Shown piece after piece: positions 2,248 to 9,642 of a stretch of 64,000 nucleotides of DNA (position 1 is its first letter; the number at the start of each line of letters is the position of its first letter). Position numbers and translations under genes: made by a program. The stretch is taken from contig JAJCZJ010000050.1 in the NCBI GenBank assembly GCA_029262455.1, positions 1 to 64,000 of the forward strand, in the 5' to 3' direction. The notes under the pieces are model-generated. The model was not told the DNA's origin and made no database searches. It saw only the letters and a list, made by a program, of their open reading frames with translations. Source of the DNA: Deltaproteobacteria bacterium (lineage in GTDB: Bacteria; Desulfobacterota; Binatia; HRBIN30; CADEER01).

Positions 2248-3960
2248 ATGGACAACAATCGGCGATTCTATCGAGCTGCAGCAATGTTTCTCGGTCTCCT
2301 GCTCTTCAACGGGCCAGAGATCGGCGCGCAAACGCGCGAGGGGCGACTGAGAATGCGGCGAACACGACCGGGCGAGGACGTCTCCCCGGCTCGTCGGATC
2401 AACCGCCAGCGGCGGCGCAGGAACGCGGAACCGGCAACAGGCAACCGAACCTTCGACGGTAGCAACAACAACCTCCGGCATCCGGATCTCGGTTCGTCCG
2501 AAAGCCAACTCCTGCGCACGACAGAGCCGCACTACGAAGACGGCATCTCATCACTGGCGGGACAAGATCGACCCGGTCCAAGAGAGATCAGCAACGCTGT
2601 GTTCGCCCAGGAGGCATCGGCGGCCAACTCTGCCGGGGCATCTGACTATCTGTGGCTTTGGGGCCAGTTCGTCGACCACGACATCGATCTGACCGACGGT
2701 ACTGACCCGCCCGAAGACGCTTCGATCGAGGTTCCCTCGGGAGACTCGTTCTTCGATCCCTTCTCGACTGGGGAACAATCGATCGCGCTGAACCGATCAA
2801 TCTACGATGAAGACACAGGCACCGACCGGCACAACCCCCGCCAGCAACTCAATGAGATTACCGCATGGATCGACGCTTCCAACGTCTATGGTTCCGACGC
2901 CGAGAGAGCGACGGCCCTACGAGCGAACGACGGTAGCGGCCAACTCCTGACCAGTGACGGCGAGCTCCTACCCTTCAATGAGTTGGGTTTGCCAAACGCG
3001 GGCGGCGACTCGTCGAGCCTCTTTCTTGCCGGCGACGTTCGAGCCAACGAGCACGCCGGCCTGACCGCGATGCATACTTTGTTCGTACGCGAGCACAACC
3101 GCCTGGCTCGCGAGATCGCGGAGGGCGACCCGCACTTGTCTGGCGAAGAGATCTACCAACGCGCCCGCGGTATTGTTGGCGCGCAGATGCAGGTCATCAC
3201 ATACAACGAGTTTCTTCCTGCGCTTCTAGGCGAGGAGGCATTGCGCCCATACCGCGGTTACCGCAGCAGGGCGAGAGTCGGCATCGCCAACGAGTTCTCA
3301 ACCGGCGCGTACCGCTTCGGTCACAGCGCGCTGAGCCCTACGTTGATTCGAATCGATGCGAACGGCAGCGAGATCGCCGAGGGCCACCTGGCGCTGCGCG
3401 ACGCTTTCTTTGCGCCGCAGCGGCTCACCGACGAAGGAGGCATCGAGCCCCTACTGCGCGGCATGGCAGCGCAAACCTGCCAAGACATCGACACTTTCGT
3501 GGTCGACGACGTTCGCAACTTCCTCTTCGGCCCGCCCGGATCTGGCGGCTTCGACCTGGTCTCGCTCAACATTCAACGCGGTCGCGACCACGGTCTCGGT
3601 TCCTACAACCAACTCCGCGAAGGCTACGGCCTCCGCCCCGCCCGAGACTTCGAAGACATCACTTCGGATCCGGACGTCGCAGAAAAGTTGCGCGCCGCGT
3701 ACGGCGACGTTGACTTGGTCGACGCGTGGGTCGGTGGCCTCGCAGAAGATCCAATCCGCGGAGCACTCGTCGGCGAGTTGGTCTTCAACATTCTGCGCCA
3801 ACAGTTCGAGCTACTACGCGACGGCGACCGCTTTTGGTACGAGCGAGTATTCAGAAGCGATGAACTCCGACAGTTGGAGGACACTCGTCTGTCTGACGTG
3901 ATTCGCCGCAACACGACCATCGACGACGAGATCCAAGACAGCGTTTTCTGGACCCATTGA
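2248..3960 (+). CDS. Secreted animal-type haem peroxidase
   Basis: A 570-residue member of the animal (An) haem peroxidase superfamily (peroxicin/peroxinectin-like bacterial branch). A hydrophobic signal peptide (about residues 9-27, cleavage near IGA-QT) precedes an unusual Arg-rich segment (about residues 33-60). Catalytic signatures are intact: WGQFVDHDI with the distal His near residue 144, FVREHNRLA, the proximal-His motif YRFGHSAL, and the signature LNIQRGRDHGLGSYNQLR. It should bind covalently attached haem and oxidise halides or phenolics with H2O2 outside the cytoplasm. The ATG at 2248 follows an AGAAAGGGG ribosome site. It is monocistronic: the next gene is 160 bases on, after a GC hairpin. 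Length and motif order match bacterial members, which are sporadically distributed. Confidence 0.9.
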   Translation: MDNNRRFYRAAAMFLGLLLFNGPEIGAQTREGRLRMRRTRPGEDVSPARRINRQRRRRNAEPATGNRTFDGSNNNLRHPDLGSSESQLLRTTEPHYEDGISSLAGQDRPGPREISNAVFAQEASAANSAGASDYLWLWGQFVDHDIDLTDGTDPPEDASIEVPSGDSFFDPFSTGEQSIALNRSIYDEDTGTDRHNPRQQLNEITAWIDASNVYGSDAERATALRANDGSGQLLTSDGELLPFNELGLPNAGGDSSSLFLAGDVRANEHAGLTAMHTLFVREHNRLAREIAEGDPHLSGEEIYQRARGIVGAQMQVITYNEFLPALLGEEALRPYRGYRSRARVGIANEFSTGAYRFGHSALSPTLIRIDANGSEIAEGHLALRDAFFAPQRLTDEGGIEPLLRGMAAQTCQDIDTFVVDDVRNFLFGPPGSGGFDLVSLNIQRGRDHGLGSYNQLREGYGLRPARDFEDITSDPDVAEKLRAAYGDVDLVDAWVGGLAEDPIRGALVGELVFNILRQQFELLRDGDRFWYERVFRSDELRQLEDTRLSDVIRRNTTIDDEIQDSVFWTH

Positions 3961-6079: not shown

Positions 6080-7726
6080 ATGAGTACAGCAGTTGAGGAT
6101 TCAGCCACCCCCGAGGCTACCGGCGATCGTCAATACCCGGGCGGATCCGCCCCGCCGGTGCTCTCCGGATCGTGGCCCCTGCTCGGACACTTGCTCGAAT
6201 TGCGCAAGCGTCCGATCGAGCTGTTTCAACGCGTTCGCGACGAACTAGGCGAGATCGGCGAGGTCAACTTCGCCGGAAACCGCGTCGTCATGCTCATGGG
6301 CGAGGAAGCACAGGAAGCCTTCTTTCGCGGCTCCGAAGAGCAACTCGACCAGGCCGCCGCCTACCCTTTTATGACTCCTATTTTCGGTCAGGGGGTCGTA
6401 TTCGACGGCACGCCCGAACAGCGCAAGCAGGCGCTGCGGAACCAGTCACTGAAAGCCGAATTCATGAAGGGTCATGCCGACACCATCTCGCGTGAGGTCC
6501 ACCGAATGATGGACTCACTCGGTGACAGCGGCGAGGTCGACCTGCTCGACCTGTTTTCCGAGCTCACCATGTACACCTCCAGCGCATGCCTGATCGGCAC
6601 CGAGTTTCGCGAAGAGCTGACCGCCGAATACTACAAGACCTTCTACGAGCTCGAAAAAGGGACCGACGCCATCGCCTACGTCAACCCGGACCTGCCGCTG
6701 CCGGTTTTCCGCAGCCGCGACCGCGCCCGGCAACGCCTGGTCGCCCTGCTCACAGAAGTCTTCGAAAGGCGCCAGGCGAATCCCGACTCGCAGCAAGAAC
6801 TCTTCGACATCCTACTCACGCTGCAAGACAAGAACGGGCAATCGCGCTACAGCGTCGATCAGATCACCGGCATGTTCATCTCCTTGATGTTCGCCGGTCA
6901 CCACACCACGTCGGGCACGGCCGCGTGGACCTTGATCGAGCTACTCAAGAACCCCCATGTACTCGGCCCTGTCATCACCGAGCTCGACGAGCTCTACGCC
7001 GATGGGCGCGACATCAGCTTCCAGGCCCTGCGCGCAATTCCGCTACTAGAGAGGGCCATTCTCGAGGCGCTGCGCCTACACCCACCGCTAATCATCCTGA
7101 TGCGCAAGGTTATGTACGACTTTCACTACAAGGGCTGGACCGTGCCCGCCGGCAAGTTGGTCGCAGTTTCGCCAGCGGTCTCGAACCGAATGCCGGAGTG
7201 CTTTGCCGACCCCAATCGCTACGATCCAACTCGCTACGAGGAGGGGCGGGAGGAAGACAAGCAGCTCTTCGCGTGGATCCCCTTCGGCGCGGGGCGCCAC
7301 CGCTGCGTCGGCGCTGCCTTTGCCATGATGCAACTCAAGGCCATCTTCAGCGACTTACTACGAGAGTACGAGTTCGAGCTTTCCCAGCCCCCCGAAACCT
7401 ATCGCAACGATCACTCCAAAATGGTGGTGCAACTCGAGCAACCTTGCCGCGCACGCTATCGAAGACGAGCCAAGCAAGCGATCGCCGCAAGTAGTACGGC
7501 CTCGAAAGCGACGCTCCCTCCCGGCGCCTGCCGAATCAAGGTCGACCTGGATCTCTGCCAAGGCCACGGGGTCTGCGCTGACGAAGCGCCGGAGGTATTC
7601 GGCCTCGACCCAGATCAGAGCAAAGTGATCGTCCTCAACAAGACACCCGGGCCCGAACAGCGCGATCTCGTCGATCTCGCGGTCAAACACTGTCCGACGC
7701 GGGCACTGAAAATCACCGAAGAGTGA
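6080..7726 (+). CDS. CYP51-type sterol 14-alpha-demethylase fused to ferredoxin
   Basis: A 548-residue two-domain protein. Residues about 1-460 form a cytochrome P450 with the CYP51 hallmark I-helix MFAGHHTTSGTAAW (near 270-282), ExxR in ILEALRLHPPL, and haem-Cys motif FGAGRHRCVGA (near 400-410). The stretch around YRNDHSKMVVQLEQP closely resembles mycobacterial CYP51. After a basic, Ala/Ser-rich linker, residues about 483-548 are a small ferredoxin with CQGHGVC and a final HCP, the pattern of P450-partner [3Fe-4S] ferredoxins. CYP51 removes the 14-alpha-methyl of lanosterol-type sterols; a CYP51-ferredoxin fusion is known from Methylococcus capsulatus. A self-supplied electron carrier and sterol-like substrate are therefore inferred. 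No sterol cyclase is in the window. Confidence 0.9.
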   Translation: MSTAVEDSATPEATGDRQYPGGSAPPVLSGSWPLLGHLLELRKRPIELFQRVRDELGEIGEVNFAGNRVVMLMGEEAQEAFFRGSEEQLDQAAAYPFMTPIFGQGVVFDGTPEQRKQALRNQSLKAEFMKGHADTISREVHRMMDSLGDSGEVDLLDLFSELTMYTSSACLIGTEFREELTAEYYKTFYELEKGTDAIAYVNPDLPLPVFRSRDRARQRLVALLTEVFERRQANPDSQQELFDILLTLQDKNGQSRYSVDQITGMFISLMFAGHHTTSGTAAWTLIELLKNPHVLGPVITELDELYADGRDISFQALRAIPLLERAILEALRLHPPLIILMRKVMYDFHYKGWTVPAGKLVAVSPAVSNRMPECFADPNRYDPTRYEEGREEDKQLFAWIPFGAGRHRCVGAAFAMMQLKAIFSDLLREYEFELSQPPETYRNDHSKMVVQLEQPCRARYRRRAKQAIAASSTASKATLPPGACRIKVDLDLCQGHGVCADEAPEVFGLDPDQSKVIVLNKTPGPEQRDLVDLAVKHCPTRALKITEE

Positions 7727-8389: not shown

Positions 8390-9280
8390 TCAAAGAGCGA
8401 TGCGAATGCCGACCAACACGTCGTGGTCCAGCTTCGGCTGCGGACCGTTCAATTTCTCAGCGGCGAGCAGGCGGACCGAAACCTCGAGCAGAATCCGGTC
8501 ACCGATGATCGCCTGAAGGCCTGGCGCAACGGTGAGCGTCGTGCCGCCGGATGCGGCAATCTTCTCACCGCGCAGCTCACTGCGGTCGCTGTGTTGCAAT
8601 CCGAGCTCGACCTGAGCATTGACTTCGAAACCCTGCGGCCGGGTTCGTTCGGGGAACAAAAACGCTCCAAGGCTCGATCCAGCTATGAGCGCGTCCCCGG
8701 CATCCAAGCCCTTGCCTTCGGTCTTGATCGCATAGCCGAGATTTAGATCGACATTGAAGCGGTAGTCCTCGCGACTGAGTATCAACTGACCCAGTACATC
8801 CGTCGAGCCCGTCCCCGGCTGAACCGCCCGCCGCAGCGGCTCCGGAACGTCGAAGTCCAGCCCGCGCGAGGTGGACCCCGTCGGCACATCGAGCGACAGT
8901 CGAAAGCCAGCCATATCACGACGTCCTCGACCTAGACGCTGCCAGAACCGATAGTGCCCGAAGATCCTAATGTCGCCGAGGCCCCGAATCGAGTCCTCTC
9001 GACCGTCGAATTCGAGTGTCTTCTCGACATAAGGAAGCACCACCCCGACGAGGCTGTGGGTCGAAAGGCCAAAAGCCATGGCGACCAAGTGCCGCTGACC
9101 GGAGACCGAGGTGTCCCTTCGACTCGCTTCGGTGAAAACCGTCCGTCCCAGAAGGATGTTTGACTGAAAAATACCCGTAGCAGCCGAGGTAGTCCGAATC
9201 GGCGCAGCGCCCGCGGGTGACGTCAACCACAAGCAGAATGCAACAACAAAGCTGGCGACCGTTGCAGGCCGGCGACTCAC
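8390..9280 (-). CDS. Outer-membrane beta-barrel protein (Phenol_MetA_deg-like)
   Basis: A 296-residue exported protein: signal peptide (about residues 1-25, ending SPAGA-A) followed by alternating amphipathic strands and a C-terminal strand ending in hydrophobic-alternating VGIRIAL, as in outer-membrane barrels. The overall pattern (LVGVVLPYVEKTLEF, GLGDIRIFGHYRFWQ, FRLSLDVPTG) resembles the Phenol_MetA_deg/transporter family often found next to metal or aromatic transport genes. Translation starts at a GTG whose GTGA overlaps the stop codon of the upstream HMA selenoprotein candidate, so the two are translationally coupled. This suggests a shared role, perhaps in metal handling or export at the envelope. 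The family name is a resemblance by eye. Confidence 0.65.
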   Translation of the reverse strand: MSRRPATVASFVVAFCLWLTSPAGAAPIRTTSAATGIFQSNILLGRTVFTEASRRDTSVSGQRHLVAMAFGLSTHSLVGVVLPYVEKTLEFDGREDSIRGLGDIRIFGHYRFWQRLGRGRRDMAGFRLSLDVPTGSTSRGLDFDVPEPLRRAVQPGTGSTDVLGQLILSREDYRFNVDLNLGYAIKTEGKGLDAGDALIAGSSLGAFLFPERTRPQGFEVNAQVELGLQHSDRSELRGEKIAASGGTTLTVAPGLQAIIGDRILLEVSVRLLAAEKLNGPQPKLDHDVLVGIRIAL

Positions 9281-9642
9281 GGCGCTGGCTTACCGTCGAT
9301 GGTGATCTTGCCGAGCTCGTATCCCGCTTCCTCGATCACCTTCCGCAAGGCATCGGGACTACACTCGGTTCCCGCTTGGGTCGGAAAATCAAGTCGAGCG
9401 GCCTGGACGTCGACGACGATTTGATTCTCCGGAGGTGCAAAAGACAGACGACTCACGGCCGCCTTGACGCCCTTGGCGCAAAATCCTCAGCCAAGGCCCA
9501 GAACCTCAGCGCTGACCTGCTGCGACAACGCCGGCTTGGCAAGATCCTCGGCGCCTGCTGACACCGGCCCCGTCCCCGCTGCCAACACAAGTAAAACCGC
9601 AAAGCACCGATGCCAACGGGTCAATTGCTGCACCAACTTCAT
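9277..9642 (-). CDS. Candidate HMA-domain selenoprotein (UGA-decoded, U-x-x-C)
   Basis: Read through one in-frame TGA (9487-9489), this frame gives a 121-residue exported protein. Residues 1-31 are a signal peptide (basic start, then FAVLLVLAAGTGPVSA). The mature part matches a MerP/CopZ heavy-metal-associated fold: strand SAEVLGLG, then U52-G-F-C55 where the family has C-x-x-C, helix AKGVKAAVSRL, strand NQIVVDVQAARLDF, and PDALRKVIEEAGYELGKI, the conserved 'AGYE' ending. The TGA falls exactly at the first metal-binding Cys. The frame stays open on both sides, and its true stop overlaps the next gene's GTG by four bases (GTGA). A stop-decayed pseudogene is the alternative. The predicted role is periplasmic metal (for example Hg or Cu) or redox chemistry. 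Confidence 0.75.
9446..9464 (-). promoter_or_regulatory. Possible bacterial SECIS hairpin
   Basis: Downstream of the in-frame TGA, minus-strand nucleotides +23 to +41 can fold with AGGCG pairing to CGTCT (one G-U pair) around a 9-base loop that begins with G (9451-9459). The loop is about 27 bases after the UGA, within the 16-37 base range described for bacterial SECIS elements. A competing 7-bp hairpin closer to the UGA (9464-9481, loop AAG) also exists. Folded by eye only. Confidence 0.3.

Follow-up and report, generated by a model that had tools for sequence, protein, structure and literature searches.

A candidate HMA-family selenoprotein with UGA at a metal-ligand codon, encoded beside a putative outer-membrane protein gene

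The stretch of 64,000 nucleotides analysed here, referred to throughout as the window, carries on its minus strand the frame of a small HMA/MerP-like protein in which the codon at the first metal-binding Cys position is TGA, and the frame overlaps the gene of a putative outer-membrane beta-barrel protein, designated OMP (Table 1). The locus raises the question of whether the TGA is read as Sec and, if so, what a Sec-containing metal binder would do next to an outer-membrane protein. The explanation preferred here is a Sec-bearing, MerP-like metal-binding protein that works with the OMP. The probability of this explanation as a whole is estimated at about 0.77, a figure in which the selenoprotein claim has the greatest weight.

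Table 1. Positions of the features in the window and of UGA-containing HMA genes in related genomes (G, genome; L, locus)
Feature	Position	Strand	Remarks
HMA/MerP-like candidate selenoprotein gene (window)	9277..9642	minus	121 codons, U52-G-F-C55
In-frame TGA, proposed Sec codon (window)	9487..9489	minus	codon 52, first metal-binding Cys position
Candidate bSECIS hairpin (window)	9446..9464	minus	7-bp stem, loop CGUGA starting 29 nt past UGA
Putative OMP gene (window)	8390..9280	minus	296 aa, GTG start overlapping HMA stop
HMA gene (G181)	L148 313-726		C-x-x-UGA
HMA gene (G181)	L149 2700-3194		C-x-x-UGA
HMA gene (G181)	L150 2016-2348		C-x-x-UGA
HMA gene (G015)	L059 2892-3389		CxxU

The interrupted frame and its decoding signals

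The minus-strand translation from 9642 to 9277 (MKLVQQ...VLGLG-U-GFCAKG...EEAGYELGKITIDGKPAP) contains one internal stop, the TGA, and its terminal TGA (9279-9277) overlaps the GTG (9280-9278) of the OMP gene. An earlier, sequence-only reading had claimed both a single TGA at the first Cys of C-x-x-C, giving U-G-F-C, and a true stop shared with the start of the next gene, and both claims were confirmed. The same reading took AGYE to be the final motif of the protein; the motif is present but occupies residues 106-109 of 121. A signal peptide was recognized by inspection at approximately residues 1-31. GGGAG immediately abuts the ATG, so that TTG and GTG codons 6-9 nt downstream are possible starts and the start codon may be uncertain by up to three codons, which leaves the Sec finding unaffected.

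One alternative is that translation ends at the TGA, so that the gene yields just 51 residues or is a pseudogene, and that the frame beyond the TGA is open fortuitously or owing to the OMP overlap. The mechanical list of open reading frames treats the locus in this way, its ORF 9855-9487 ending at the internal TGA, as was foreseen in the remark that gene callers would miss the gene. Codon usage before the TGA is weak (0.008, nonetheless the top value of the six frames of that stretch), and the hairpin that follows also belongs to a terminator-like set, although such sites are no more numerous than expected (2 found versus 2.9 expected). However, the stretch after the TGA alone reached 17.6 bits with a family profile that had been built from eight relatives and excluded the window protein, more than any of the 1815 shuffles reported out of 2000, the best of which scored 7.5 bits. 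Its codon usage is gene-like (0.202, compared with a mean of 0.207 for 13 window genes), a value equalled by 0.9% of 965 off-frame stretches. The reading frame after the TGA is more than chance, in agreement with the claim that it has been kept, and full-length homologues retain the pairing of the HMA and OMP genes. Truncation at the TGA is scarcely credible.

Residues 49-109 matched the Pfam HMA family (PF00403) with an E-value of 8e-4 and 20.2 bits, under the curated cut-off of 24.8, which the OMP-linked HMA relative in G235 clears with 32.9 bits. An AlphaFold2 model, made with C placed at codon 52 together with seven Cys HMA relatives, has the HMA fold with a pLDDT of ~93 across residues 41-119. 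In the model, residue 52 sits just ahead of helix 1, with the ligand pair at the helix start, and the top PDB match was MerP (1osd), with copper chaperones and ATPase domains ranking next. The predicted fold of the window protein is MerP-like.

The source genome (7.3 Mb in 127 contigs, listed as 100% complete) was searched for selA, selB, selC and selD, the check proposed with the Sec claim, and selA (561.8 bits), selB (375 bits), selD (271.6 bits) and one tRNA-Sec over the cut-off (74.9 bits, anticodon tca) were all found. Since selB was above the cut-off in 15 of the 19 genomes tested, the Sec genes are necessary but insufficient, and their presence alone gives weak support.

A bSECIS hairpin is expected shortly after the UGA. 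The candidate in the window has an energy of -7.3 kcal/mol, a value matched after 10.8% of the 1727 TGAs of the window, so that by itself the hairpin proves little; shuffle z-scores for six stretches ranged from -1.01 to +0.40. At the allowed distances, the seven sites in U genes had hairpins of -7.3 to -11.8 kcal/mol, and these were stronger than the hairpins of 11 non-U homologues (Mann-Whitney p 0.0025, which is only a guide because the sequences are kin). Each non-U gene was represented by the better of its two positions; the MerP-like gene of G235 was included, G061 was left out, and the one non-U exception, a strong hairpin in G235 (-14.2 kcal/mol), was retained. G141 entered the U group without its first UGA (-1.7 kcal/mol), because the two UGAs of this gene would share one hairpin.

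The covariation test covered second-position UGA sites. At four such sites (G141, G015 and two of the G181 genes), the proposed helices retain 88.6% of their pairs. Three pairs changed on both sides, a number reached by 39 of 500 shuffles, the covariation score was reached by 5 of 500 shuffles, and slid versions of the helices had 0 or 1 doubly changed pairs. Counted from the UGA, the start of the loop is at 31-32 nt in these four genes, at 28 nt in G103 and at 23 nt in the third G181 gene. In the window the UGA is 9 nt earlier in the motif and the loop still starts at 29 nt, so the distance between UGA and loop is roughly kept.

Cys and UGA in related HMA genes

Homologues had been predicted to show either Cys or U at the site, and Cys or UGA was indeed found at the motif, including UxxU, CxxU and CxxC forms. 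A class-wide HMA search gave a match in 28 of 148 genomes, with the motifs V-U-P-I-U-GYG in G141 (UxxU), Q-C-S-L-U-SYG in G015 (CxxU) and P-P-C-U-AYN in G103 (PxCU). A phylum sample of 395 genomes had HMA matches in 203, mostly generic HMA proteins, and G181 contributed three genes, with C-V-L-U-AYG, C-E-L-U-AYG and C-S-G-U-PPN. Among the matches listed there was no other UxxC gene than that of the window. Seven further loci encode Cys HMA proteins, none with UGA at the motif, and one of the seven, L022, is the most like the window protein.

Nine TGA-containing rows of the phylum sample were inspected. Besides the three G181 genes, these were six ordinary HMA proteins (G225, G339, G444, G345, G451 and G273) whose TGA is a stop located at the end of the gene or upstream of it; other rows, G524, G161 and G445 among them, lie outside the nine, and the sample may contain further Sec forms. 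A G044 gene scored with one TGA was also rejected: it is of the ordinary CopZ-like kind, one TGA lying ahead of its start and one at its end.

A second alternative is that an ordinary Cys protein, its true codon being TGC or TGT, has acquired the TGA by a single-base read or assembly error or by a strain-level nonsense mutation. Neither gene of the pair was found in any of the three other genomes of the genus, so that the exact UGA is known from one assembly only. In addition, G015 has a family UGA although no Sec system is visible in its genome: profile searches gave no selB over the cut-off and no tRNA-Sec, the best match to the selB profile spans part of the profile only and on reading is EF-Tu-like, and the best tRNA match is a tRNA-Ser. 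The Sec genes of G015 may lie in a gap, the contig may derive from another organism, or the gene may no longer function there; this genome counts against a tidy picture. Three of the seven genomes given (G141, G103 and G181) have tRNA-Sec, and selB is present in G141 and G103, G181 being outside that selB search. Several observations argue against an error or mutation, 1) the sole internal stop of 121 codons hits one of the two ligand positions, in a genome that decodes Sec, 2) distant relatives have UGA at the same two positions and 3) homology and codon usage carry on past the TGA. An error or a mutation is very unlikely, and the HMA protein of the window is, with high probability, a selenoprotein; the Sec interpretation of the gene was supported overall.

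The outer-membrane partner and the metal context

The window OMP had no match in Pfam, PF13557 included, and its single-sequence fold was uninformative (pLDDT 33). The homologues in G141, G235 and G511 match PF13557, whose members we take to be outer-membrane barrels, while the G015 homologue does not. OMP homologues were present in 15 of the 148 class genomes, and a query with the G141 OMP found them in 39 of the 395 genomes in the phylum sample. A profile of nine HMA proteins, mostly OMP-linked, was used to scan the OMP loci of 42 genomes, made up of 30 of the 42 places in the phylum sample plus the class loci. An HMA gene was in the same locus as the OMP in 14 of these genomes, and it was found at all eight of the best phylum OMP loci, five of which were not in the profile, versus 1 of 22 others. 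In the remaining 28 genomes no HMA neighbour was found at the OMP within a view restricted by contig ends or by flanks of 1.5 kb; most of their OMPs rank among the weaker members of a broad OMP superfamily, and the OMP of G079 is truncated, with no HMA gene by profile. The G103 and G181 genes are at or near contig ends or in short stretches, so that an OMP partner, if any, would be out of view.

The motif in the 14 paired genomes is CxxC in seven (G005, G026, G249, G235, G511, G296 and G206), UxxC in the window, UxxU in G141, CxxU in G015, and lacks a Cys pair in four (G117, G118, G108 and G061). The HMA gene comes first in the window, G249, G235 and G511 and the OMP gene in the other ten; the two genes are ~1 kb apart in G005. 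A plasmid search with the OMP returned 12 records, of which four were viewed. An HMA gene lies beside the OMP match on two of them, with CPFC in Marinobacter salarius pSMR5 and VPFS, without Cys, in Acidibrevibacterium fodinaquatile, and no HMA gene adjoins the match on the Ruegeria and Manganitrophus plasmids. In a tree of 17 OMPs, the three U-linked OMPs were placed with those of G079, G206 and Manganitrophus (99/99) and away from the OMPs linked to CPFC or Cys-less HMA proteins. The U-linked trio formed one group in 0 of 200 bootstrap trees, the firmly supported branches being compatible with such a group.

The Cys-less OMP-linked HMA proteins (L081 3831-4226, L082 4008-4448, L083 5781-6224 and L170 3397-3759; motifs NPFS, IPFT and VPFS) retain the pair with a metal-chaperone fold minus the ligands, so the HMA-OMP pair can exist with no metal ligands at the site.

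The neighbours of the relatives suggest a role with metals. The order in G235 is MerR, MerT, a MerP-like HMA gene, another ORF, HMA, OMP and an NHL-repeat protein, that in G249 is MerR, HMA, OMP and NHL, and that in G511 is HMA, OMP and NHL. The G026 locus has MerR and a MerC-like protein, an ArsP_1 permease gene follows the HMA gene in G141 and G015, two of the three G181 loci also contain a protein resembling these ArsP-type permeases, and a P-type ATPase gene precedes the HMA gene on pSMR5. No metal genes adjoin the window pair among the neighbours scanned, which were P450-ferredoxin, AAA_33, cold-shock, thioesterase and M28 peptidase genes.

Several features of these loci were recorded in their own right. 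The NHL-repeat gene, encoding a beta-propeller, follows the HMA-OMP pair in G235, G249 and G511 (L158, L157 and L159). Beside the OMP-HMA pair of G026, L086 2181-3014 encodes a protein in which a part with a weak match to the DF family of (seleno)proteins is joined to a MerC-like part. On the plus strand of the window, 6080-7726 encodes a cytochrome P450 with a C-terminal ferredoxin fusion (PF00067 and Fer4_13), and thus a self-contained electron partner, and 2248-3960 encodes a bacterial animal-type haem peroxidase with PF03098 matched over its full length; on the minus strand, 1-79 matches the end of a group II intron (RF02005) at the cut-off.

A third alternative accepts the selenoprotein but gives it thiol/selenol redox chemistry or sulfur delivery on the OMP, the Cys-less homologues then being scaffold or assembly factors. 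The Cys-less OMP-linked forms in G117, G118, G108, G061 and Acidibrevibacterium are consistent with this possibility, as is the view, in the available part of one paper, that most prokaryotic selenoprotein families are involved in redox reactions (PMC9312934). Against it, the top PDB matches of the model are metal-binding proteins, MerP first, and the neighbours of the relatives are MerR, MerT, MerP-like, MerC-like, ArsP_1 and P-type ATPase genes. A redox or sulfur-delivery role is considered unlikely, and Sec probably acts as a metal ligand. A functional partnership of the HMA protein with the OMP is also favored, if slightly less firmly.

Known systems and the proposed mechanism

The window protein is like MerP (TIGR02052; PDB 1osd and 1afi) in its predicted HMA fold, in ligand positions four residues apart and, by inspection, in its signal peptide. 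It differs in having UGA at the first ligand, in scoring 12.9 bits against the TIGR02052 cut-off of 92.55 and in lacking mer genes in the part of its neighbourhood that was scanned. NF041115 (UxxU_metal_bind), a metal-binding (seleno)protein family tabulated as UxxU with 2 Sec in the accessible part of a 2026 review (PMC13188914), is likewise of the HMA type with Sec at ligand positions, but the window protein scored 13 bits and its UxxU relative in G141 42.1 bits against a cut-off of 95, and the window combines UxxC with an OMP partner. NF045683, a MerT/CopZ fusion-like heavy metal transport selenoprotein, has an HMA-type part and matched relatives of the window protein, whereas the window protein has no MerT part and no match up to E 1 (curated cut-off 375 bits).

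Table 2 of the GOS paper (PMC2398784) lists, in the portion available, a Sec-containing MerP, with no motif stated, and a cation-transporting ATPase, and a UxxC cation-transporting ATPase is also in the list of PMC13188914. These proteins share Sec in metal transport with the window protein, but no OMP coupling is described in the accessible text. The Marinobacter salarius pSMR5 protein (WP_085682200.1) resembles the window protein in its CxFCAxG motif and in the overlap with the next gene, and differs in having Cys at both positions, a P-type ATPase gene ahead and a shorter partner, a 139-aa hypothetical protein that aligns with one third of the OMP query (45.5% identity). In the parts of the literature available to the search, no description of an OMP-coupled HMA selenoprotein was found. 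The window protein is far under the NF041115 cut-off and has no NF045683 match, which sets this HMA family, coupled to an OMP and with UGA in place of one ligand, the other or both, apart as a new variant among the HMA selenoproteins already catalogued. The pairing of a Sec-containing HMA protein with an outer-membrane protein gene had been called unusual. Because such families are already known, Sec in an HMA protein is less unusual than was held, while the coupling to an OMP gene is real and recurs in the relatives.

The steps of the proposed mechanism up to translation rest on the genome. SelB and charged tRNA-Sec would decode the UGA at codon 52 with the aid of the hairpin ~29 nt downstream, and the second TGA would terminate translation of the HMA protein. 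The product would then be exported, its mature form adopting the HMA fold and placing U52 and C55 in the metal loop, where the selenolate and the thiolate may hold a soft metal, most likely Hg(II) or Cu(I). Together with the OMP from the overlapping gene, the HMA protein would move the metal across the envelope or detoxify it there. The metal, the contact with the OMP and the direction of transport are proposed from MerP and CopZ biology and from the neighbours of the relatives.

A more elaborate possibility, which is doubtful, is a trans-envelope module of the periplasmic HMA protein and the barrel, with an ArsP-type permease in some genomes, in which Sec has been moved freely between the ligands. 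In the genome of the window, UGA decoding would also gate the synthesis of the barrel by way of the stop codon that overlaps its start. If this were true, outer-membrane capacity would track the supply of selenium.

The finding corrects the annotation of a gene at whose UGA the mechanical list halts. More broadly, the family amounts to a set of natural substitutions in one metal site (CxxC, UxxC, CxxU, UxxU and no Cys) tied to the same kind of OMP, and it therefore offers a direct test of what selenium gains for metal binding. It also tests whether bacteria use a periplasmic chaperone paired with an outer-membrane barrel for soft metals.
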